IMG/VR virus record: IMGVR_UViG_3300009073_000033
Location: 1 to 25,986 of that record
Length of the DNA: 25,986 bases
Source of the DNA: a virus
Strand: one strand, 5' to 3'
This document shows, piece by piece, positions 7,135-22,824 of the stretch. The notes under the pieces are model-generated. The model was not told where the DNA came from and did no database searches. It saw nothing but the letters and a program-made list of their open reading frames with translations. The stretch's first letter is position 1, and the number at the start of each line of letters is the position of its first letter. A program made the translations under genes and the position numbers.

Positions 7135-7508
7135 TGTCTTTTGCTGTAACTCCATATTTGTATAAAAAGTTTGATATTGAAAGCTATAATTGCTGGCATT
7201 TATTACTTGATTGCTTAAAAGAATATCACGATTTGACATATCCTGATTTTACCCCAACTGATTGTAAAAAGAAAAACTTAACTGAACAATTCACACCTGA
7301 AAGATTAAACCTTTTCGAGAAAATAAAACCTTCTAAAAAAGAAGATGGTGTTATTGCCTACATGACACACCCTATTTTAGTTCCTCATGTTGGTTTCTTT
7401 TTTGACGGCAAAATACTATCTATGAAGAAAACCGGCCCTACTTACGAAAGAGTTCACGAAGCTACACACGGCTTTAAGAAACTGGAATACTACCGATGCA
7501 AAAAGTAA
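7134..7508 (+). CDS. NlpC/P60-like tail-tip peptidase (124 aa)
   Basis: This is a small papain-fold protein likely to cut peptidoglycan peptide bridges during DNA entry, like the C-terminal half of lambda K. C20 in the YNCWHLL motif is the expected nucleophile and H85 in PHVGFFFDG the expected base. At 124 aa it is a minimal domain with no JAB partner domain. It overlaps the next gene by 13 bases. The third polar catalytic residue is not obvious. Placement between distal tail and tip genes supports the call. Confidence 0.75.
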   Translation: MSFAVTPYLYKKFDIESYNCWHLLLDCLKEYHDLTYPDFTPTDCKKKNLTEQFTPERLNLFEKIKPSKKEDGVIAYMTHPILVPHVGFFFDGKILSMKKTGPTYERVHEATHGFKKLEYYRCKK

Positions 7509-10297
7509 TATTAGGAACTAATGCGCTAGAGCCTAAAACATGGACTGAACACAGCGTTCTTTCTGTTGATGCTTTTTTGCGTGAAACTTTTCCACAAGGT
7601 TTGCCTGAAACAGCTCGTATTTATAAAGGTTCTGTAAATCTGTTAAACGATATTACCCCTAAGTGTGAAAAAGAAATAGAGTGCATGAACTCTGTTGATG
7701 AAACAGTTTATGTTGTTGTATATCCAGGTGATCCGATAACTATTATTGTTGCCGTTGTTGTAGCTGTCGTTTCAGTTGTCGCTTCTTTATTGTTGGCCCC
7801 TAAGATACCTAACGTTTCGCAGAGAAATAATCAAAACCAAAGTTCAAATAACGAACTTTCGTCAAGAGGTAATAAATCGAGAATTGGCGCTAGAATACCT
7901 GACATATTCGGACAAGTTAGATCGTACCCCGATTTAATAGCGGTTCCTTATAAAGTCTTTGTTGCAAATATTGAATACGAAACAACTTATATGTGTGTTG
8001 GCCGTGGAGAATATTTGATTGAAGATATTCGAGAAGGTAGTACGATTATGTCAACTATCCAAGGCTCTAAAGTAGCTTTTTACGGCCCTGACACTTCTCC
8101 TAATATTGGTACGGCGCAACTCGCGATAGGTTCTCCTATAGGTGATCCACTTCTTGATATTAAAAGAATTGAAGCCTTTAATGGACAAGTTCTCAAAGCT
8201 ACAAATACCTCTAACCGAAGCTATTCAAGTTGGTTAAAATTCTCCAACAATGGAACCACACAAAAGCTTTTGATTGATCCTTCTGTTCTTAACACCGGTA
8301 GAAGTTACGGTTATTACGATTATGAATACGAAGATTATGAAGAAGACGATTATTACACAAACCCCATATTTAGCGCTGGCGATATTATCGAAATAACCGA
8401 TGATCTTTACGCCGGTGTATATACAATTGGTTACGTTAATGGTGCTGAAATGCAACTGTTGAACGCAACTACTGTTAACTCAAACTGGTCTTCTCTGTCC
8501 GGCACTACCGCTCAAGACAATACAGCTACTGTGTCAAAACAAAACCCTGACGCTGTTGGAGAATATCTATCTGATAAAAAAGACGCCGACACTTTTATTG
8601 TAAATGTTGTAGCCTTGAATGGTTTATATAAAGAAGACGCGGATCGTCAAATTGCGGCAAGTATTCAATACCGCATAACCATAACGCCTGTTAATTTAAG
8701 CGATGTTGCAACCGGCCCCGCTGAAGTATTCACAAACACAATTCGCGGCTCCTCTAGTGAAAAAACTTCAATAGGCCAGACGTTTTATTGTAAGCCTTCA
8801 TTTGTAGGCAGATGTAAAATATCAGCGGTTAGATTGACTGCTAACGATACAGCTTTTGATGGTAATGTTGTTGACGAAATAAAAATACGTGACGTTTATG
8901 CGGCTAAAAGAGTTGCCGATGGTGTTCATTTTGGAAATGTGACGACTGTTCATTCTCAAATAAAAGCAACAGATGGGGCTTTGGCGGTTAAAGATAGAAA
9001 ACTATCAGCTCTTGTTACAAGAAAGCTACCCGTTAAATTATCAAATAACACTTTTGATGAAAACGATTTACAACCAACTCGAAGCTTTGCTGATATACTT
9101 TGCTTTAACGCTCTTGATCCTTTTATCGGCAGACGTTCAATTAATCAAATAGATGTTCAAAATATTTATGATACTGAACAGGAAATAATTGATTATTTTG
9201 AAGACACCGAAAACGCAATAGAAGGTGAAAATTTTACAAGATTTGCATATACTTTTGATGCCGATAATATGTCTTTTGAAGAAACGGCGTCTATTATCTG
9301 TGGAACTGTCCACGTCACGCCTTATAGAAAATGGAACTTGATAAAAACTATTTTTGAGCGTCAAGAGGATAACCCTTCAATGGTTTTTAGCCATAGAAAT
9401 AAATTACCTGGAACCGAAACGCGAGCTTACAAATTTGGTATTTATAACGAACATGACGGGGTAGAATTAACTTACGTTTCACCTATCGATGATGCTTTGA
9501 TGACTATTAAGGTTCCAAATGATTTAATTACAAATCCTAAGAAAGTTCAAACTGTCGGCGTTCGTAATTCAAGACAAGCTTATGTTCACGCTTGGAGAAC
9601 TTGGAATAAGTTGATATACAATTATCTAAGCACTCAATTTGAAGCTACTGGCGAAGGTAATGTTCTTAAACGTCAAGATCATATACTTGTTTCCGATAAT
9701 ACCAACCCTGTTACTTTTGATGGTGAGATATTAGAACAGGCGGGTTTATCTTTGAAGCTTTCTCAAAATGTTGAACTTGAAGAAAACTTGACATATTATA
9801 TAGCTGTTCAACATACAAATAGGACGGTTCAAATAGTTGAATGTTCAAGCTCCTCTATGGGTAAAAATTACGTTCAACTTGTAACGCCTTTGACTTTTAA
9901 ATTAGCTTTTGAAGATGACTTATATTCAAGATCGGCGTTTAAAATATCAGAAGAAAGTTTAGTTTCGGTTGATAGATTTATTGTTAGTGAAAATAGAATT
10001 AATAGCAATATGTCCAGCGATGTTAAAGCTATTAATTACGATGCTCGTTATTACCAGAATGACAGTTTGAGCAATAATGCACCCGAACTTGATGTGAGTT
10101 CGCCTTTTGAGCCTGAACCGCCATATGTGCCGCCTACGCCAGAGCCAGAACCTGACCCTGTTCCCGATCAACCCGAACCCGATCCTACGCCAGAACCGGA
10201 GCCAGAGCCAGACCCGCCACCTTCTCCACCTGGACGCAATCCGCGTGAACCTGATTATATATTTGACCCCTCTAACCCGAATGAAAATATTCAATAA
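7496..10297 (+). CDS. Tail tip / host-specificity protein, J-like (933 aa)
   Basis: This is the large central tip protein that probably carries the receptor-binding apparatus. Residues 1-75 resemble the small lambda-I-like tail assembly domain. A hydrophobic, Val-rich segment follows (about 81-101), a hallmark of I/J-type proteins. A long beta-rich body comes next, and from about residue 870 a Pro/Glu/Asp-rich tail (PEPEPDP-type repeats) ends in a short polar tip. Residues about 272-287 form an unusual Tyr/Asp/Glu-rich run. The start at 7496 overlaps the peptidase gene. The proline-rich tail probably acts as a spacer to the fibre encoded next (inference). Confidence 0.82.
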   Translation: MQKVILGTNALEPKTWTEHSVLSVDAFLRETFPQGLPETARIYKGSVNLLNDITPKCEKEIECMNSVDETVYVVVYPGDPITIIVAVVVAVVSVVASLLLAPKIPNVSQRNNQNQSSNNELSSRGNKSRIGARIPDIFGQVRSYPDLIAVPYKVFVANIEYETTYMCVGRGEYLIEDIREGSTIMSTIQGSKVAFYGPDTSPNIGTAQLAIGSPIGDPLLDIKRIEAFNGQVLKATNTSNRSYSSWLKFSNNGTTQKLLIDPSVLNTGRSYGYYDYEYEDYEEDDYYTNPIFSAGDIIEITDDLYAGVYTIGYVNGAEMQLLNATTVNSNWSSLSGTTAQDNTATVSKQNPDAVGEYLSDKKDADTFIVNVVALNGLYKEDADRQIAASIQYRITITPVNLSDVATGPAEVFTNTIRGSSSEKTSIGQTFYCKPSFVGRCKISAVRLTANDTAFDGNVVDEIKIRDVYAAKRVADGVHFGNVTTVHSQIKATDGALAVKDRKLSALVTRKLPVKLSNNTFDENDLQPTRSFADILCFNALDPFIGRRSINQIDVQNIYDTEQEIIDYFEDTENAIEGENFTRFAYTFDADNMSFEETASIICGTVHVTPYRKWNLIKTIFERQEDNPSMVFSHRNKLPGTETRAYKFGIYNEHDGVELTYVSPIDDALMTIKVPNDLITNPKKVQTVGVRNSRQAYVHAWRTWNKLIYNYLSTQFEATGEGNVLKRQDHILVSDNTNPVTFDGEILEQAGLSLKLSQNVELEENLTYYIAVQHTNRTVQIVECSSSSMGKNYVQLVTPLTFKLAFEDDLYSRSAFKISEESLVSVDRFIVSENRINSNMSSDVKAINYDARYYQNDSLSNNAPELDVSSPFEPEPPYVPPTPEPEPDPVPDQPEPDPTPEPEPEPDPPPSPPGRNPREPDYIFDPSNPNENIQ

Positions 10298-12188: not shown

Positions 12189-12211
12189 AAGTTAGGCTTG
12201 CCTGATTTTAG
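12185..12211. terminator. Bidirectional terminator between convergent operons
   Basis: CTAAAA-g-TTAGGC, a TT turn, then GCCTGATTTTAG form a stem with one bulged G and T-rich or A-rich flanks on both strands. It covers the stop codons of both the hydrolase (+) and the DNA polymerase (-). The tight GC turn would open by a base pair or two. It probably ends both the tail and replication transcripts. Confidence 0.6.
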
Positions 12212-14211
12212 AACGGAATTTCGTCGTCAAGATCGAAGTCGTTATAGTCGCCGTTTTGCAATCTGTAATAACCAATATCAACAAGCATTTGTTTAGCTTC
12301 TTGTATATACCAAGTGTAATCCAGGTCTTCAGGCAAAGCGTAATTATCCGGTAACTCCATAAGCGGCCAAGCTCCACGGCTTTTAGAAACTTTGCCACCT
12401 TGTCCGGTTTCAATTATACCATGTTCGTCTTTTTTATAATACCAACGAACAGTTTTACCAACTAAGAAACCGTCTTTGTAGCCACCCCCTGCTACTTTGC
12501 GAACAGTTACGAATTTTCTAACGTCTTTGCAAGCTTTCACCGTTTCTTCAATGGGTTTGTTTTCAGTCAAAAATAGTTTTACCGCTTCGGAGCATATGGG
12601 GTTTTGGGGATTTTTCTTCATTGCAAATTCCCATTCTTCGTCTGCAAACGGATCAGAGAATTGACCTTTACCTTTTATTTTACCATTAGTTTTAACAGCA
12701 ATATACGTGTTGCAAGCTTGTGAATACATTGCCGAATATCTAGTTTCTTCAGTATCTAAACCCGTCATATTCTCCCATAATTTAACAAGTCTGTTGAACA
12801 ACTCATATTTATCTTTTGGAACAATGCAAACAACCCCGTCTGTGTTTGCGGATATTACTTTAAATCCATAATGCGTCATCATATCAATATACATTAATAA
12901 ACAAAGTTGTCCGGTGATAGTAACTTGTATGAAACCTTTAGGGGTATAAATTTTACTAAAAGGGGAGTTAGTTTTTCCAAACGTACCATTGATTGTAATT
13001 TTTAAACTATCGGCTGTCGATTTATCTTTGGCCCTTTTCGCACTAAGTCGCCTGTCAACAATGCTTTTATAAACCGGTAGAAATTCGTCACCCATTTGAA
13101 TAGGTGTTAATCCTTGGTTCAAAATAAGAGCCGGATAATAGCTAGCTACGTCACGATCAATTATATAACTATCTTCGTCTGCCTTGTAGGACATTGCTTT
13201 TTCTTGACTATGTAAACCACCTACTCCCATTTTATAAGAACCGTTATCTATCTCTATAACAAGATCGGTAAATTCTTCAGGTAGTTTTATACGTCCGTTG
13301 TGATCTGTTTTAAATTCACAATTTCTAAGAGTGTTTAGCATAGATCGTAGAGAAGTGTTTTCATAATGAATATAATCGGGTATGTCATAGAAATATGAAC
13401 GAAACGGTTCTATTTTAGGTTTGCGAATATAAGTGCCTTTTGCTTCAGAAACTTCTTTGTCAATAACAGCTTCGGCAATTTGAGCGTCAGATTTAGACCG
13501 TAAATCTATATTGTATTCAGCGCTCATTGTGCGGCGCAATTTCATTTGCTTAGAAAGTTTGTTGTAAATATCAATGTTATCGTCAAGATCATTTATATTA
13601 TAGTATTTAACAACGTCCATTTCTTCAGGTGTTAAAACGTGTTCAGCCGGGTAAGGTAAGTCTTGAATACGCTTTGCGTGTATTCGAGCTGCATACATTT
13701 TCAAAGAAGCAGTTAACGGAGTTACGGGTAAAAGGTCTATGGAATTGTAACCTCTTGTAGCAAAGCCCCATTTTTTACAAACTTGGTATCGTGACATTTC
13801 CATAACAATTATGTCATTCACCATTTCTTTCAATTGCGAAGGTTTAAGTTTTAAGCGTATCAATGCCCACAATAGAATATCGTCAAATTCGTGAGTGTTG
13901 AAACCTACGAAACAAAAATTATGAGTTAACCAAAGAGCTAGATCGGCAAACTCAAACGGCTTTTCTTCGCGATTTTCTATTGATAAAACACGTCCGGTTT
14001 GTATAGACTTAAACCCTAGACAATAATAGTTTTTGTAACTTTCAATATCGAAAGACAATTCGTTACCAACTTCAGCTTCAAGAGTATGATTGTTAAACCA
14101 TTCAATACTAGGTTGCGAATATTTAGGTGGAACGTAACGTTCTCCGAACAGCAAAGGCGGCTGTCGGCTTTTCTTGCGCATAGGCGTATTATCAAAAAAC
14201 TTAAACGACAT
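12208..14211 (-). CDS. Family B DNA polymerase with 3'-5' exonuclease (667 aa)
   Basis: Phage replicative polymerase. Exonuclease motifs are intact: Exo I D55/E57 (SFDIESYK), Exo II GFNTHEFD (N105, D110), Exo III YNIND (Y204, D208). Polymerase motif A is DVASYYP (D354), motif B KITINGTFG (K404), and motif C SANTDGV (N456, D458), where the first Asp of the usual DTD is Asn. The metal-binding second Asp remains, and I recall the NTDG form from other phage polymerases. At 667 aa it is compact. The C-terminus is FDLDDEIPF, strikingly like the bacterial SSB tail. It is the last gene of the replication operon and overlaps the clamp gene by one base (TAATG). Confidence 0.93.
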   Translation of the reverse strand: MSFKFFDNTPMRKKSRQPPLLFGERYVPPKYSQPSIEWFNNHTLEAEVGNELSFDIESYKNYYCLGFKSIQTGRVLSIENREEKPFEFADLALWLTHNFCFVGFNTHEFDDILLWALIRLKLKPSQLKEMVNDIIVMEMSRYQVCKKWGFATRGYNSIDLLPVTPLTASLKMYAARIHAKRIQDLPYPAEHVLTPEEMDVVKYYNINDLDDNIDIYNKLSKQMKLRRTMSAEYNIDLRSKSDAQIAEAVIDKEVSEAKGTYIRKPKIEPFRSYFYDIPDYIHYENTSLRSMLNTLRNCEFKTDHNGRIKLPEEFTDLVIEIDNGSYKMGVGGLHSQEKAMSYKADEDSYIIDRDVASYYPALILNQGLTPIQMGDEFLPVYKSIVDRRLSAKRAKDKSTADSLKITINGTFGKTNSPFSKIYTPKGFIQVTITGQLCLLMYIDMMTHYGFKVISANTDGVVCIVPKDKYELFNRLVKLWENMTGLDTEETRYSAMYSQACNTYIAVKTNGKIKGKGQFSDPFADEEWEFAMKKNPQNPICSEAVKLFLTENKPIEETVKACKDVRKFVTVRKVAGGGYKDGFLVGKTVRWYYKKDEHGIIETGQGGKVSKSRGAWPLMELPDNYALPEDLDYTWYIQEAKQMLVDIGYYRLQNGDYNDFDLDDEIPF

Positions 14212-15221
14212 TATTTAATTCGCCCTACTAAGCCTCTGAAACCTTCTCCGAATATCATACAAGCGTTAGGGTGAGAAGTGAAGTCAATAGAGTGTATATA
14301 TTTTTCCACGGATTTTAAATATTTAGCTCTAAAAGCCTGGCCTGTGTAGCCATAAAAAGCCAATTCGTCTTCAGCTTGAGAACCTATATTATGTGTTGAA
14401 CCTCTACCTTCAAAAGAATGTGATGAAACTTTATGATCTAACATATAAACGGTTTCATCTTCACTGAATGAAACAACAGCGTCGATAGCTTTAAAGAAGT
14501 CGCGAGGTATTGGTTTTGGGTTACAGTCTATGTTAAGCAAGCTGTTAACATTTGGGTATTTTTCCATATACAATTGTGTTCTAAACCAAGAGCCGTCTTC
14601 AAAATGTATAGTTATCGATCTATCACTAGCTCCAAAATAAACAGGTCTTTTATTTATTTTTGTTAAAACGTTAACGCTAGCTTTCGGCAAAAGTATATTA
14701 GTTGGTAAGTTGAAACCATGCCAAGCTTGTAATATAACATGAGTGTCAGTGCCTTCAACAGTTTGCCCATTTATGCAAACGCTGGAAGTTATTATACGAT
14801 CTTCTCTTTCGTCAACAATACCGGCTACCTTTTTTATCGCAGTTATAAAGCTTTCGTCAATTCCAACTTGAGCTGGATCGGGTACGATATAAGTAAAAGC
14901 TGAAGGATTTACACATTCTAAAACAACCTTCATTTTATCAGTTTGAAGTATTAGCGTTTCTCCGCTGTTTTCAGCGAACAATACTTTTGATCCGCATTTC
15001 TTTAGAGCGGTTAACATCTTAGTAGTTTGTGGGCATACTTTTAAATCAACGTCAATGGGATGGCCCAAAGCTATTGAACCGTTAAAAGTAACAGCCGTTT
15101 TGTTGAACAACCTAACGTGTTTTTCAGTTATACTAGCTGCGGGGTTTTTAGTCGCAATTAGATTAACGAAGCTGATAGCTTCTAACATTAAGTTTTTTGT
15201 CTTTCGTGTAGGTCTAGGCAT
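14211..15221 (-). CDS. DnaN-like DNA polymerase sliding clamp (336 aa)
   Basis: The overall pattern resembles a bacterial beta clamp: an N-terminal domain with AVTFNGSIALGHPI, then VCINGQTVEGTDTHVI (compare the DnaN 'ATDGHRL' region), LLPKASVNVLTKI, and MEKYPNVNSLL, matching the 'FPD...L' element. It ends with a beta-rich third domain. The usual length is about 365 aa, so it is slightly short. It would ring the DNA and hold the polymerase encoded next. No clamp-loader subunit is seen here, so loading probably relies on the host. It overlaps its neighbours by one base each. Similarity is remote, hence moderate confidence. Confidence 0.7.
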   Translation of the reverse strand: MPRPTRKTKNLMLEAISFVNLIATKNPAASITEKHVRLFNKTAVTFNGSIALGHPIDVDLKVCPQTTKMLTALKKCGSKVLFAENSGETLILQTDKMKVVLECVNPSAFTYIVPDPAQVGIDESFITAIKKVAGIVDEREDRIITSSVCINGQTVEGTDTHVILQAWHGFNLPTNILLPKASVNVLTKINKRPVYFGASDRSITIHFEDGSWFRTQLYMEKYPNVNSLLNIDCNPKPIPRDFFKAIDAVVSFSEDETVYMLDHKVSSHSFEGRGSTHNIGSQAEDELAFYGYTGQAFRAKYLKSVEKYIHSIDFTSHPNACMIFGEGFRGLVGRIK

Positions 15222-15436
15222 TAGAAAGGTATCTCCGTTATATCAACGTGCAACTCACAGCCTACGGCTATAACAGTAGCAGGGGGGCGCTTGTTAGCTT
15301 TCTCGCATACTTCGTAACCAAGATCAAAAAATTCACAATTGACACAGCTTTTACGCAAAGCCGGTGTCATAAGCTTTTCTATAAACTGTCTAAGTTCATA
15401 TTCCGTTTGATAATAAATATTTCTTTTATCAGTCAT
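15221..15436 (-). CDS. Small Cys-rich, probably zinc-binding protein with SSB-like tip (71 aa)
   Basis: C31 and C34 (CVNC), C44, C60 and H63 (VGCELH) form a C-x2-C-x9-C-x15-C-x2-H module that probably binds zinc. The RPPATVIAVGC segment is of a kind common in small phage proteins. A near-matching module lies at the C-terminus of the nuclease encoded at 17107-18015. The last residues, VDITEIPF, resemble the SSB C-terminal tip and share EIPF with the DNA polymerase. It overlaps the helicase gene by 8 bases and the clamp gene by one, so it belongs to the replication operon. Function unknown; an adaptor between replication proteins is an inference. Confidence 0.75.
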   Translation of the reverse strand: MTDKRNIYYQTEYELRQFIEKLMTPALRKSCVNCEFFDLGYEVCEKANKRPPATVIAVGCELHVDITEIPF

Positions 15437-17105
15437 ATTCGTATCTTATTATTTCAGGGTATTTTTGATTAGTTATAACATGAATATACGTTGGAACTCT
15501 CAAACTATCAACATATTTTAACGCTTCTTCGATTGTTTCCGGTGGCTCTAAAGGTGAACACTCTCGCCACCAATCCCTTGATTTTTTAGTGTGAGCCATG
15601 CCTTTTTTGTCTTCTAAGAAAACGTATTTGTAAAAAGTGTTCATTCCGTTTGCACAAAAATAAGCTATCTTTAGCATGGGAACTCTACCCGCTTTTGTGT
15701 GCTGTTTATAAGTAACCTTTCTTATTTCGTATCTCTCAACAATAGGATCGGAAGTAGCTATAAGCTCTTGTGTTGAAGCAAACGTATCTATATTTTCTTC
15801 GATAGGAAAAACGTAATCACAATGTTCACAAGAAGGGCTTGAAGTATGACTATAACAATCGCACATAGGGCATAGTCTAACAGGTGCTAATATGCTATTA
15901 GAAACACCTTTACCTTTACCCTTGTTAGGAGCATGGGGTAATATAGGATCATTAATAGGGCCAATTCTTGCAGTGTTACCGGCGAAATCCATAACCAAAC
16001 AATTATGTTTTGGTAGCAAACTGACAAAGCAACCAGGCGCGTATTCGTACTCTCCACCCGCCCAAGGTCTAGTTCCTCTACCTAACATTTGTACCCATAA
16101 ACCTGGGCTTTGAGTAGGTCTTAACATTCCTATTAAGTCAATAGCAGGATGGTCAAAACCAGTTGTTAGAACGTTCATGTTAACCATAGCTCTATATTTA
16201 CCAGCTTTGAAGTCTTTTAATCTTTCGCGTCTTTCTCCAGCCGGTAATTTGCCGTGAACAAAGGTAGCTGTAACACCTTGTTTGTTTAGTTCGCTCGCCA
16301 CATTTTCAGCATGGTCTATGCCTGAAGCAAACAGCAACCAAGCCTGTCTATCAAAACCAAATTGACACATTTCTTTAACAGCCGCTTGGGTTTTAGCATA
16401 TACGTTTACGGCACTTTCAAGATCACCTTTTTGATAGTCACCCGCTCTAGTTCGTACCCCTGAAATATCTAATAAAGTATCGGGGTTTTTTGGAACAAGT
16501 GGGGCTAAATAACCTTCTTGTATAAATCTTACAAAATCATCTTTGCCAGTTTTATCATAACATATTTCGTCAAATATTCCACCTTCTACTAACCCGCCTG
16601 TGCCTACACGATATGGAGTAGCCGTTAAACCTATCACTTTAAAGTTGGGATTAATCATCTTTTGATAAGCGATGAATTTTTGATATTGGCTTTCGGCTTT
16701 TGGCCCGATCAAATGACATTCATCTACAATCATTAAATCGAAAGCTTCAAAGCTTTCTATATTGCGGCTCATGCTTTGTATCATTCCAGCCGTAACAGGT
16801 TGATGTATTTCTTTGCGACCTAGACCCGCTCCATATAAACCTAACGGGCATAGAGGCCATAGCTTTAAAACCTTGTCAACATTCTGTTCAATAAGTTCTT
16901 TGACGTGTGCGGCCATTAGAACGCGCCCAAAGCCCATTTGATAAGCTTGCATAGCTTCCATTGCTTCTTTGATAAGCATGGCGATGATCCAGCTTTTGCC
17001 CGTACCTGTGGGCAAAGCTATAACGGGGTTTCCGCTATATCCTGAATTGAAATATGTAAAAACGGCGTCAACGGCTTCACGTTGATACCAGCGAGGATCA
17101 AACAT
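15429..17105 (-). CDS. DEAD/DEAH-box (SF2) helicase with zinc ribbon (558 aa)
   Basis: ATP-dependent DNA translocase/helicase. Motifs in order: WYQREAV (Q-type, residues 6-12), Walker A LPTGTGKS (31-38), DECH (128-131), TATPYR (161-166), the C-terminal RecA domain with FVHGKLP (282-288) and TTGFDHP (314-320), and motif VI QMLGRGTR (339-346). A C-x2-C ... C-x2-C zinc ribbon follows (C412, C415, C426, C429), then about 120 residues without a recognised fold. The layout is that of XPB/ComFA-like phage helicases. It may serve replication restart, recombination or branch migration. It starts one base after the nuclease stop. Confidence 0.88.
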   Translation of the reverse strand: MFDPRWYQREAVDAVFTYFNSGYSGNPVIALPTGTGKSWIIAMLIKEAMEAMQAYQMGFGRVLMAAHVKELIEQNVDKVLKLWPLCPLGLYGAGLGRKEIHQPVTAGMIQSMSRNIESFEAFDLMIVDECHLIGPKAESQYQKFIAYQKMINPNFKVIGLTATPYRVGTGGLVEGGIFDEICYDKTGKDDFVRFIQEGYLAPLVPKNPDTLLDISGVRTRAGDYQKGDLESAVNVYAKTQAAVKEMCQFGFDRQAWLLFASGIDHAENVASELNKQGVTATFVHGKLPAGERRERLKDFKAGKYRAMVNMNVLTTGFDHPAIDLIGMLRPTQSPGLWVQMLGRGTRPWAGGEYEYAPGCFVSLLPKHNCLVMDFAGNTARIGPINDPILPHAPNKGKGKGVSNSILAPVRLCPMCDCYSHTSSPSCEHCDYVFPIEENIDTFASTQELIATSDPIVERYEIRKVTYKQHTKAGRVPMLKIAYFCANGMNTFYKYVFLEDKKGMAHTKKSRDWWRECSPLEPPETIEEALKYVDSLRVPTYIHVITNQKYPEIIRYEYD

Positions 17106-18077: not shown

Positions 18078-18767
18078 TTAAGGCGCGGCTTGACCCGCCC
18101 ACCCTGGAGCTGCGCCGCCGCCCTGGGGCTGTTGTGCTGGCTGTTGAGCGGGTTGTTGAGCTGGAGCGCCGCCGCCCTGCCAGCCGCCAGCATTAGCCTG
18201 TGGCTGTTGCTGTGCCGGTTGATTAGGCATTTGAACATTGTTATCAATGGCCGGTTGTTGAGCGGGTTGTTGTTGAACAGGCTGTTGTTGCACCGGCTGT
18301 TGTTGAACAGGTGTTTGCGGAGCTGAAGTAGCACCGGCTGGCATTTGACCTTTAACCGGATCATTACCGGCAACGTCCATATAACCTTTAATTTCATTAT
18401 TGAACTTGCTAGCGTCATCATTGCGAGCGACTTTTTCAACACGAATACGAAAAGGCTTGCCGTGTAGAGCGTTCGTATTGTCAATGCGGAAAACACCGAT
18501 AACGTGACAGATTGCAGAAAGTGTTTGTTGGGCGATTTGAACCGCTGTTTCATTTGAGTTTTGCAAATTCAAACGTTCAATAATGCCAGCACCTTTATGC
18601 TCGCCGTCTTGAACCTTCATGTTAAGCTGAAGATAAGAACCGGATTGATCCTTAGTCATCTTGCTTTCTGACGATACGATACAAACCGCATATTCGCCAG
18701 TAGGAACAACGCTCATGCCAGTTGACGGATCATGTTGCGTTGCATCGAATGTAAATTGAACAGACAT
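18078..18767 (-). CDS. DUF669-like single-strand DNA-binding protein with Gln/Pro tail (229 aa)
   Basis: Residues about 20-130 match the phage DUF669 pattern (TGEYAVCIVSSESKMTKD, then SYLQLNMKVQDGEHKG and RLNLQNSN). Such proteins lie next to annealing ATPases and are thought to act as phage SSBs. From about residue 145 it is a low-complexity Gln/Pro/Gly/Ala tail with PVQQQ repeats, like the disordered linker of bacterial SSBs. Unlike those it ends WAGQAAP, with no acidic Pro-Phe tip. Its ribosome site is GAGGT, 8 bases before the ATG. It is followed by a palindrome and a strong terminator, as expected for an abundant protein. Confidence 0.75.
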   Translation of the reverse strand: MSVQFTFDATQHDPSTGMSVVPTGEYAVCIVSSESKMTKDQSGSYLQLNMKVQDGEHKGAGIIERLNLQNSNETAVQIAQQTLSAICHVIGVFRIDNTNALHGKPFRIRVEKVARNDDASKFNNEIKGYMDVAGNDPVKGQMPAGATSAPQTPVQQQPVQQQPVQQQPAQQPAIDNNVQMPNQPAQQQPQANAGGWQGGGAPAQQPAQQPAQQPQGGGAAPGWAGQAAP

Positions 18768-18800: not shown

Positions 18801-19508
18801 CTAGGCTAAAACTTTTTGGAACAGGTGGCCTAGATCACCGTATTCTATAGGAGCAAGTTTGCCTGTCCTATCTTTTGCTTCATGCGTATCAGATTGAGAC
18901 GTTTGAAATTGGGGAATGTTATGAGGGTTAGCGGGATCGGTAGAAACCACTGTATAACAACGTAAGAAAAAATCGAATTTGTACGGCACATAATCCCGCA
19001 ACGCTTTGCCTTCAAACTTAGAAGTGTGCATTACGGAGCCGGTCATACTATCGCTAATCCGTTCTTCTTTAGCAATAACTAGAACGTGTTTACCTTGAAC
19101 GTTTAAGAGATTGTTTACAACCGCTTCAATTTTTGTTTGCATTTCACCGTAAGCGGCTTGCCCGTTAACTTTGTTGCCACTTTTAGAAGTCTTTGCCAAC
19201 TCAACGGTTACAACAATTTTAGCAAGCTCGCTAATATCATCTATGCAAATAACGTCATAGTTGGCCTGATTTTCAGGCTTGCCTAAAAAATTGAACGCTT
19301 CCAGGAATTGCTCATAAGTGGTAACAGAAAGGTAAGGAACACTAGCACCGGAAAGCGACAATAAACCATTGTCAGTTGAAATAACAATCGGTCTAAAACC
19401 TGCATTTTGCAAAGCTAAAATCTGCCTAGTTTTTTGAGCGCCAGTTCTACCATAGATCAACGCTTTAATACCATTCAGTTTAATATCGCCGGTGTTTTGT
19501 ACTTGCAT
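18801..19508 (-). CDS. Sak4-like RecA-fold ATPase (AAA_24 type), probable recombinase (235 aa)
   Basis: RecA-like NTPase similar to the phage Sak4 single-strand annealing/recombination group. The P-loop is GRTGAQKT (20-27), with Gln where the last Gly of GxxxxGKT is expected. Walker B is YDVICIDDISE (D90, D91). A central AYGEMQTKIEAVV helix and the VLVIAKEER strand are typical of the family. Lying next to the SSB-like gene supports a role in annealing or strand exchange. It overlaps the 72-aa gene by one base (TAATG). Confidence 0.75.
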   Translation of the reverse strand: MQVQNTGDIKLNGIKALIYGRTGAQKTRQILALQNAGFRPIVISTDNGLLSLSGASVPYLSVTTYEQFLEAFNFLGKPENQANYDVICIDDISELAKIVVTVELAKTSKSGNKVNGQAAYGEMQTKIEAVVNNLLNVQGKHVLVIAKEERISDSMTGSVMHTSKFEGKALRDYVPYKFDFFLRCYTVVSTDPANPHNIPQFQTSQSDTHEAKDRTGKLAPIEYGDLGHLFQKVLA

Positions 19509-20303: not shown

Positions 20304-20492
20304 ATGACATTTTCATTACTTACTGAAACTATCACATTACTCGAAAAATACATGGTGTCCGGCACTATTCAAAAGCTATCTAAAGATAGCGGTATAAATG
20401 ACAAATGGTTGTATGCTTTTCATAACCAGGTTTCTAAAGACCCTGGAGTAACTAAAGTTCAAGCGTTGTACGATTATTTGAGTGACGTTTAG
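20304..20492 (+). CDS. Small HTH-like DNA-binding protein, Cro-type (62 aa)
   Basis: Residues about 20-50 (TIQKLSKDSGINDKWLYAF) look like a helix-turn-helix, followed by DPGVTKVQALYDYL, which is common in small phage regulators. It stands at the divergent junction facing the replication operon and next to inverted repeats, so it may repress that promoter or its own (inference). The frame also contains a GTG at 20292; I prefer the ATG at 20304 but neither has a clear ribosome site. It overlaps the primase frame by 11 bases. Confidence 0.6.
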   Translation: MTFSLLTETITLLEKYMVSGTIQKLSKDSGINDKWLYAFHNQVSKDPGVTKVQALYDYLSDV

Positions 20493-22824
20493 CGTGATTG
20501 AACAATATAGAAAAATACCAGATGAAATGAAGGGCTACAAACAATGGGTTTGTTGGCGCTTAGAAACATTGTTAGATGGTACGAAAACGAAAATTCCATA
20601 TAATATAAAGACGGCTCATAAAGCTTCTGTTAACGATCCTAATTCTTGGGTAACGTTTGAAGACGCCGTTATGAAACTACAAGATGGTTTCTATACCGGA
20701 ATAGGTTTTGTTCTAACAACCGCTGACCCTTTTTGTTTTATTGATTTAGACAACCCTAAAGATTTTGTTGAAGAACAAGAGCGAGCGGAAATATTTCAAA
20801 GACAGATTAAGATATATGATGAATTTGAAAGCTATTCTGAACGTTCTCCAAGCGGCAAAGGCTTGCACATTATATGTAAAGGAGCCGTTAAGGTTGGCCG
20901 CAAACGTTCTTATGTAGAGGTTTATTCTCAACAAAGATTTATGACTATGACCGGTGAACAATACGGTTCTGTCACTGTTATAAATGACCGATCCGAATTA
21001 GTTAATGTTCTTTATAAAGAAATGGGCGGTAAAGCTAACCATTCTGTTTATGTCGAAGAAGAAGATCAAACCATAACAGATGAAGAATTGTATAATAAGA
21101 TAGTTGGCGCTAAAAACGGATTGAAAGCGCACGATCTTATAACCGGTAATTGGATAGCTCATTATCCAAGCCAATCTGAAGCTGACTTTGCGCTTATAAA
21201 TATTATTTCATATTACAGTAAGAACCGCGCTCAAATCATGCGTTGTTTTCGATACAGTAAGCTTGCTGAACGCAAGAAGGCTAATCGTGACAAATATCTT
21301 AACGATATGATAACTTATTCTTTTGATCGTATGCTGCCGAAAATTGACATTGAGGGCTTGAAAATCCAAATGGAAGCGGCTATAGCTGAAAGCCAGGGGG
21401 CTACCCGCCGCGACGATCCCGCCAATTCTCCACAAGAATATAAGCTGGAAACTGTTGCGGCGGGTATGCATCCCGCCAAAATAACAAGCGATATAGGCGA
21501 CTGGCCCCCTGGAATAACAGGCGAAATTGCACGTTACTTTTACCATTCTTCACCGCGTCAAATTAAAGATATTGCTATAGTTGCAGCTTTGGCTTTCATG
21601 GCAGGTGTTACAGGTAGAGCTTATAATATTTCGGGAACTGGTCTTAACCAATATATTCTTTTGCTTGCTGGAACCGGAACCGGTAAAGATAGCATGGGTA
21701 GTGGAATGTCACGCCTTGTATCTTCGGTTATGCAACAGATACCCGTAATTGATGATTATATCGGCCCGTCCGGTTTTGCTTCAGGATCGGCTCTAATTAA
21801 AGATATGGTTAAGAAGCCGTCTTGTGTCGCTGTCATAGGAGAGTTTGGATTACGCTTACAGCGCATGGAAGACCCGCGCCGTAATTCAAGCGAGCTTCAG
21901 CTTAAAGAAGAACTGTTAGATTTTTATAGCAAGAGTGGACAAGGTGAAGTTAAGCGCCCGTTAGTCTATAGTGATAAGTCAAAAGATACAATGGCTATTC
22001 GTTCTCCAGCTCTTACAATATTAGGCGAAAGTGTTCCAGGACGTTTTTATAAAACGCTTACTGAAGATATGGTTTTGCAAGGTTTTATTCCACGTTTTTT
22101 AATAGTGGAATATAAAGGCAAAGTTCCTGATTTAAACATGAACCGCGAAATGGTTCCAAGTAACGAATTAAAAAACAACCTTTGTGATCTTGTAGATACA
22201 GCAGCCCATCTAAATGCGCAACAGCAAGCTTTCAATGTCCCTACAACAGATGAAGCGCAAGCAAGCCTAATGGAATTTTCCAAATTTTGCACAGCAAAAG
22301 TGAATGTTGAAGCTGAAGACGCTAGCAAGCAACTTTGGAACCGCGCTCATTTAAAACTGTTGAGATTGTGCGCTTTGTTAGCTGTTGGCGAAAACTGGAA
22401 AAATCCCATAATTTCCATACAAAATGTCACATGGGCTAAGAACTTAATACTCACTGAAATTAACAATATAATCAGTAAGTTTAAAACCGGTGAAATTGGC
22501 GAAGACAACAAAGAGACTAAGCAAGAAGATACTTTTAAGAAAGCTATTTTTGATTACTGTATAAGCGCTATTAAAAAACCGGCTGAAGAAAAAACAGCTA
22601 TGGAAACTGATTTGATAATATCTAAAAAAGTTATTGACGCTCTTAGAAATCAACCATGCTTCAAAGATGATTACCGTGGATCGACTAATGCCCTGGAGCG
22701 CACCATTAAGAATTTCGTTGAACGCGGTAGCTTTAGAGAAGTACCTAAGACCGATCTTCGCGCAAAGTATCAATATTATGGTAGAGGGTTTGCAGTGTTA
22801 AACCCTATGGACTTCGGCCTTTAG
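20482..22824 (+). CDS. Primase-polymerase / P-loop ATPase fusion, replicative primase-helicase (780 aa)
   Basis: N-terminal archaeo-eukaryotic-type primase domain: WVCWRLE and KIPYN opening (residues 22-42), FIDLDN with D88/D90, SPSGKGLH with H129, and YVEVY with E146, as in NrS-1-like phage primase-polymerases. A linker follows, then a DUF3987-like ATPase/helicase domain: LAGTGTGKDS Walker A (K402), Walker B AVIGEFG (E454), and GFIPRFLIV (about 535-543) with a likely arginine finger. It would prime and unwind the phage DNA. The frame opens at GTG 20482; a GTG at 20494 is possible and neither has a strong ribosome site. Its stop codon lies inside the first iteron-like repeat. Confidence 0.85.
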   Translation: MTFSVIEQYRKIPDEMKGYKQWVCWRLETLLDGTKTKIPYNIKTAHKASVNDPNSWVTFEDAVMKLQDGFYTGIGFVLTTADPFCFIDLDNPKDFVEEQERAEIFQRQIKIYDEFESYSERSPSGKGLHIICKGAVKVGRKRSYVEVYSQQRFMTMTGEQYGSVTVINDRSELVNVLYKEMGGKANHSVYVEEEDQTITDEELYNKIVGAKNGLKAHDLITGNWIAHYPSQSEADFALINIISYYSKNRAQIMRCFRYSKLAERKKANRDKYLNDMITYSFDRMLPKIDIEGLKIQMEAAIAESQGATRRDDPANSPQEYKLETVAAGMHPAKITSDIGDWPPGITGEIARYFYHSSPRQIKDIAIVAALAFMAGVTGRAYNISGTGLNQYILLLAGTGTGKDSMGSGMSRLVSSVMQQIPVIDDYIGPSGFASGSALIKDMVKKPSCVAVIGEFGLRLQRMEDPRRNSSELQLKEELLDFYSKSGQGEVKRPLVYSDKSKDTMAIRSPALTILGESVPGRFYKTLTEDMVLQGFIPRFLIVEYKGKVPDLNMNREMVPSNELKNNLCDLVDTAAHLNAQQQAFNVPTTDEAQASLMEFSKFCTAKVNVEAEDASKQLWNRAHLKLLRLCALLAVGENWKNPIISIQNVTWAKNLILTEINNIISKFKTGEIGEDNKETKQEDTFKKAIFDYCISAIKKPAEEKTAMETDLIISKKVIDALRNQPCFKDDYRGSTNALERTIKNFVERGSFREVPKTDLRAKYQYYGRGFAVLNPMDFGL

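Follow-up and report, generated by a model that had tools for sequence, protein, structure and literature searches.

An SSB-like C-terminal tip in a phage replication module, carried by several of its components and, in one phage, by the B-family DNA polymerase

B-family DNA polymerases, among them gp43 of RB69 and T4, archaeal PolB with its PIP box, and E. coli Pol II, have C-terminal peptides that bind the sliding clamp. In bacteria, the chi subunit of the clamp loader is one of the partners of the C-terminal tail (SSB-Ct) of the single-stranded DNA-binding protein, SSB. Through it, bacterial SSB engages at least 17 proteins (PMC7145534). A tail of this general kind is also found in phages: Sak4 of HK620 needs the NDYPPF tail of the phage SSB in order to bind SSB-covered ssDNA, and the stimulation of annealing needs it too (PMC5928155).

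The locus described here, referred to as the window, is the whole stretch of 25,986 nucleotides of viral DNA that was analysed (IMG/VR virus record IMGVR_UViG_3300009073_000033). It contains a replication module of lytic type, in which two proteins end in a tip that resembles SSB-Ct. The relevant features are the following:

12208..14211, minus strand: family-B DNA polymerase of 667 aa, phrog_1252 (profile, PDB and AlphaFold2/Foldseek matches)
12211..12237, minus strand: SSB-like C-terminal tip FDLDDEIPF of the polymerase (from the sequence; tail residues 652-667 with pLDDT <50)
14211..15221, minus strand: phage sliding clamp, a DnaN-like processivity factor, phrog_947; without a tip here, with a DDIPF-type tip in many relatives
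15221..15436, minus strand: 71-aa Cys4 protein, phrog_23504, ending VDITEIPF; the commonest carrier of the tip in relatives
15224..15241, minus strand: second SSB-like tip, ITEIPF, at the end of the Cys4 protein (from the sequence; IPF is conserved in the family)
15429..17105, minus strand: SF2 helicase (ResIII/DEAD-type), tip-bearing in Skure, R7M, L035, L042, L066 and L072
17107..18015, minus strand: Cas4-like exonuclease
18078..18767, minus strand: DUF669 phage SSB without a tip, ending WAGQAAP
18801..19508, minus strand: Sak4-like ATPase/annealing protein
20482..22824, plus strand: primase/helicase, phrog_3022, with an NrS-1-like HBD, divergent

Motifs and fold both place the polymerase in family B. 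It matches phrog_1252 with an E-value of 7e-182 and the PDB profiles of Sulfolobus-type PolB1, Pol alpha and E. coli Pol II with E-values from 6e-9 to 1e-5, and its AlphaFold2 model, which is confident (mean pLDDT 88), retrieves archaeal B-family polymerases and E. coli Pol II in Foldseek searches. The last nine codons, at 12211-12237 on the minus strand, read FDLDDEIPF (DFDLDDEIPF in the longer form) and are followed by a TAA stop at 12208-12210, in agreement with the original prediction of an SSB-like polymerase end; the description, in the same prediction, of a phage SSB-like protein that ends WAGQAAP and lacks the tip likewise agrees with the DUF669 protein at 18078-18767 (minus strand). 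The tip-bearing residues 652-667 of the polymerase make up its sole predicted disordered stretch besides the N-terminus. Absent from the original prediction was the second tip, borne by the Cys4 protein, whose gene adjoins the clamp gene directly upstream. In both proteins a [DE]-rich run followed by (I/V/L)PF occupies the exact C-terminus, as in SSB-Ct, and the likeness extends to a disordered tail, which is seen in the low pLDDT of the polymerase end and in the C-terminal extensions of the clamps, variable in sequence and length.

Gene order of the module in relatives is exonuclease, helicase, (Cys4 protein), clamp, PolB. The first alignment of four homologues of the Cys4 protein had the four cysteines and the terminal IPF as its main invariant features. 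The profile of this family also matches the C-terminal Cys-rich domain of the module exonuclease, with E-values down to 6e-5 in complete exonucleases, so that the Cys4 protein was probably derived from that domain; its structural neighbours included none that were significant. In one locus (L114), a Cys4-like domain sits inside the helicase. The module helicases themselves show striking conservation at their very end, VNKKYPE(I/V)LSxE(W/Y/F), which may also serve in docking, and in the L035, L042, L066 and L072 helicases an extension follows this conserved end and itself ends in the tip. The DUF669 SSBs of the module have a recurrent C-terminus of another kind, PWGQR/K or PWGAR-like, which may dock a phage partner, for example Sak4. 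A proline- and acid-rich repeat end (PEPEPDP) is seen in the large protein at 7496-10297 (plus strand) of the window.

Among 152 distinct PolB homologues, the SSB-like tip occurs in one, which is the window's own. The other 151 end differently, and conservation of the tip at the polymerase level, which had been proposed as a check of the original prediction, is rejected; for the polymerase taken by itself, this is the outcome that the prediction had named as its refutation. The last 130 residues of the polymerase match 327 records of GenBank phages, and none of the best 40 alignments extends to the end of the protein. A search for close relatives of the polymerase in IMG/VR and among GenBank phages found none closer than ~46%, and a Genome_contigs search yielded two MAG contigs only. 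The tip of the polymerase rests on a single sequence and has so far been seen in the window only. About half of the polymerases of the clade end in [FLM]F, often in a QxxFF-like motif (as in L002, L006 and L102), with such endings as QIMFF, QATMFF and QISFF. These are probably clamp-binding tags, and the window polymerase, which ends DLDDEIPF and not in a QxxLF or QxxFF motif, does not have one.

The proposal of an SSB-type docking tip, to which the homologues of the polymerase lend no support, is nonetheless well supported by the proteins encoded next to it. We read the ends of all ORFs in module-bearing sequences, ~160 loci from IMG/VR and 21 named phages, defining the tip as a terminal [ILVMFA]P[FY] that has one or more acidic residues among the six before it, and counting distinct proteins. 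The tip was present in 62 of 72 Cys4 proteins, 33 of 135 clamps, 5 of 130 helicases and 2 of 115 exonucleases; PolBs (1/130) and SSBs (1/99) had one instance each, and Sak4 (0/88), Gam-like proteins (0/74) and primases (0/39) had none. A stricter definition gave the same picture, with no tip in 97 DUF669 SSBs of the module. A chance origin of the tip is rejected, as the unrelated ORFs of these loci (100 aa or longer, 4303 in number) include only 2 with such an end. When considered by carrier, the tip is conserved in the Cys4 protein and in one large clade of clamps, and not in PolB, and it is a feature of the replication module, not an oddity of the polymerase. No OB-fold ssDNA-binding domain was found in the tip carriers, i.e., PolB, the DnaN-like clamp, the SF2 helicase and the Cys4 protein.

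The tip is present in 19 of the 21 named phages. Thirteen have it on the Cys4 protein (Pfeifenkraut, Halfdan, AH03, Pavpe01, R3, Kimi, Eidolon, RHEph04, BcepGomr, Me-ZS1, pVco-14, nyashin_LB6 and PSASB_03), four on the clamp (Kmi2C, RcMotherGoose, PaMx42 and KL1), and two on the helicase (Skure and R7M). A pattern scan of the whole records found no tip in the Acinetobacter Lokiviruses Loki (L005) and IMEAB3 (L004), which have the full module, so that the tip, as defined by the pattern used, is not indispensable. In two related modules without a tip, an ORF ending VMDIPF is located just upstream of the exonuclease (L126:5387-5893 and L160:5677-6204) and is possibly a further carrier.

In 25 representative tip-bearing clamps, P is found in 25/25, I or V in 25/25, F in 24/25, and D at position -5 in 23/25; the last five residues are near-invariant and yet use up to four synonymous codons. 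Entropy is 0.4 bits in the tip and 2.3-3.8 bits from position -6 upstream, where the linker is essentially unconserved. The fixed residues, their varied synonymous codons and the unconserved linker together show purifying selection that acts on the clamp tip alone.

When the clamps are clustered at 90% identity, 52 of the 110 clusters have the tip on the Cys4 protein only, 24 on the clamp only, 2 on both, and 4 on the helicase only; 23 clusters, about a fifth, show no tip in the stretch covered, and variants such as ETPF and GFLPF are seen at the ends of some. Fisher tests of exclusivity between Cys4 protein and clamp give p of ~1e-7 at 90% identity, ~2e-5 at 70% and no significance at 50%, but these values are inflated by relatedness, as the tree of 105 clamp cores requires the clamp tip to have changed six times and offers just three independent contrasts, too few for a phylogenetically independent test. 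Individual lineages are more telling about the change of carrier than the cluster statistics. In the lineage of L103, L125 and L132, which is found among relatives with the tip on the Cys4 protein, the Cys4 gene is kept without a tip and the tip is present on the clamp; in L149, the Cys4 protein extends beyond DDIPF, and the clamp ends SDDVPF. In these two lineages the tip of the Cys4 protein has been lost or buried, and it is the clamp that bears one.

The company that such an end keeps elsewhere was examined by scanning viral contigs for genes ending in D[LF]DDEIPF followed by a stop, and 98 proteins were taken into a family scan. Most of them are SSBs or belong to other ssDNA-binding families: Pfam SSB accounts for 43, and PHROGs annotated as ssDNA-binding for many others. 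One is a sliding clamp, which comes from the same phage module. Among the matches listed for the 98 proteins, there are no polymerase families.

In the 21 complete relatives, no clamp-loader domain (PF13177) was found, and a search for AAA proteins gave sub-threshold matches only, except for one protein of R7M. The latter is an AAA ATPase above the PF00004 cut-off, at MT345684.1:50085-50501 on the minus strand (L008). Among the named phages, all except Me-ZS1, whose record is on a cyanobacterium, Microcystis, have alpha-, beta- or gammaproteobacteria as hosts. HolC is listed in alpha-, beta- and gammaproteobacteria (Table 1 of PMC3290774), and the portions of that paper drawn upon here make no separate statement for the chi of Acinetobacter. 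A possible difference in Acinetobacter chi or SSB could explain the tip-less Lokiviruses. In our own survey of 14 controls, chi was found only in E. coli and Caulobacter; the cyanobacterial control had none, and Me-ZS1 nonetheless bears the tip.

We consider it quite probable, from these sequence comparisons, that the tip docks some partner of SSB-Ct. The fuller proposal, in which a transferable mimic of SSB-Ct brings in a host partner of SSB, the likeliest being the clamp loader via chi (HolC), seems to us about evenly balanced between being right and wrong, and the naming of chi and the clamp loader as the main partner of the tip would fall a little short of even. The tip would be a copy in kind of bacterial SSB-Ct, placed on the flexible C-terminus of a phage replisome component. 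Phage ssDNA would be coated by the phage's own tail-less DUF669 SSB, and the host factors that home to the SSB tail would not be recruited; a tip on whichever fork protein evolution permits, be it the Cys4 protein, the clamp, the helicase or, here, also PolB, would restore the docking. Since a tail on any fork-bound protein would do this, the carrier would be exchangeable. The host clamp loader, reached through the chi subunit, would be the likeliest client, given a phage that supplies its own DnaN-like clamp and has no recognisable loader. PolB would then be an additional carrier, specific to its lineage, of a tip with the same function. The idea that the polymerase recruits the host SSB interactome is in this way modified: it survives in the form that some replisome component usually bears the tip, as two do here. 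In its most general form, the proposal is that widespread lytic phages of proteobacteria, having their own clamp and no loader, hijack the host loader by means of an SSB tail on an interchangeable fork component, and that the tag was switched among unrelated replisome proteins (Cys4 protein, clamp, helicase, exonuclease and, here, PolB) with its function kept; we put this forward tentatively. Against the proposal stand the tip-less Lokiviruses, the 23 clusters in which no tip is seen, the tip of Me-ZS1 on a host group whose control has no chi, the loss of significance at 50% identity, the single sequence behind the polymerase tip, the AAA ATPase of R7M, and the possible presence of host SSB at the forks of the phage.

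With at least 17 host proteins known to bind SSB-Ct (PMC7145534), the tip might dock one other than the clamp loader, such as PriA, RNase HI, ExoI, RecO, DnaG or RecG, for example in primer removal or fork restart. The occurrence of the tip on a helicase and an exonuclease, beyond the polymerase, the clamp and the Cys4 protein, speaks for such a partner, as does Me-ZS1, recorded on a cyanobacterium when the cyanobacterial control is without chi. We nevertheless think it unlikely, as these phages have their own primase/helicase and SF2 helicase, and the clamp loader is the obvious missing piece of the module; RNase HI as the sole client is further weakened by Skure, in which a tip is retained although the phage encodes RNase H and ligase. 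A phage partner would be Sak4, encoded in the same module. The tail of the HK620 DUF669 SSB provides the precedent (PMC5928155), and the dock, in that case on the SSB, would here have been transferred to other proteins of the fork. But Loki and IMEAB3 have Sak4 and no tip, and the PWGQR/K-like end of the module's own DUF669 SSBs would be a more natural dock for Sak4, which leaves this reading improbable.

A still more doubtful reading concerns the polymerase end by itself, which may be a drifted clamp-binding peptide that binds the phage clamp and became SSB-like by convergence. The [FLM]F and QxxFF-like ends of about half of the clade's polymerases favour it, inasmuch as EIPF can be read as a variant of these. 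The acidic DFDLDD run, however, is missing from the ends of relatives, which are basic or polar, the viral genes that end in D[LF]DDEIPF mostly belong to SSB families, and the presence of the same tip on the Cys4 protein and on the clamps of relatives is inexplicable by drift of a clamp-binding peptide. Finally, the original prediction had allowed for sequestration of host SSB partners, and a decoy of this sort, inhibiting nucleases, recombination or defence factors, can be imagined: a mimic of SSB-Ct would be a competitor of host SSB, and the small Cys4 protein, if free, would suit the purpose. We found no support for sequestration. The tip is also fused to proteins bound at the fork (clamp, helicase, PolB), for which local recruitment is a better explanation than titration, and we regard the decoy as very improbable. 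Recruitment of a host SSB partner, with the clamp loader as the leading candidate, is the reading that we retain.

If true, this would explain how processive synthesis starts in phages that have a DnaN-like clamp and a B-type polymerase and no loader, and it would assign a function to the uncharacterised small family phrog_23504. Selection on a short linear docking motif would be seen to act on the replisome as a whole instead of on one protein. The phages would depend on host HolC or on other pockets that bind SSB-Ct, and inhibitors of the SSB-Ct pocket could affect them.

The original prediction knew of no description of such a tip on a phage B-type polymerase, and we found none either in the open-access literature searched, nor any for a phage clamp, helicase or small Cys4 protein, or for a change of carrier. 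The closest system is bacterial SSB-Ct itself (DDDIPF in E. coli), which shares with the phage tips the acidic run and IPF at the exact C-terminus, the position after a disordered linker, and the role at the fork; the difference is that in the phages the carriers are a polymerase, clamp, helicase or Cys4 protein and not an ssDNA-binding protein, and that docking is putative. The DUF669 SSB of HK620 is similar in having an acidic/aromatic C-terminal docking tail in a phage module with Sak4 and DUF669, but there the tail is on the SSB, whereas in the present clade the DUF669 SSB is without a tail and other proteins bear it. The clamp-binding peptides of B-family polymerases are, like the tip, short docking tags at a disordered polymerase C-terminus, and about half of the clade has the [FLM]F/QxxFF form, but the end of the window polymerase is acidic and SSB-like, not QxxLF-like. 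In the YoaA-chi-SSB system, too, a factor other than a polymerase, in that case a helicase, is tied to the replication machinery through chi; YoaA, however, binds chi at the HolD site, without a mimic of SSB-Ct. Docking by SSB-Ct and the tails of phage SSBs are thus already known, and what appears to be new is the existence of carriers other than SSB whose ends fit the sequence definition of SSB-Ct.
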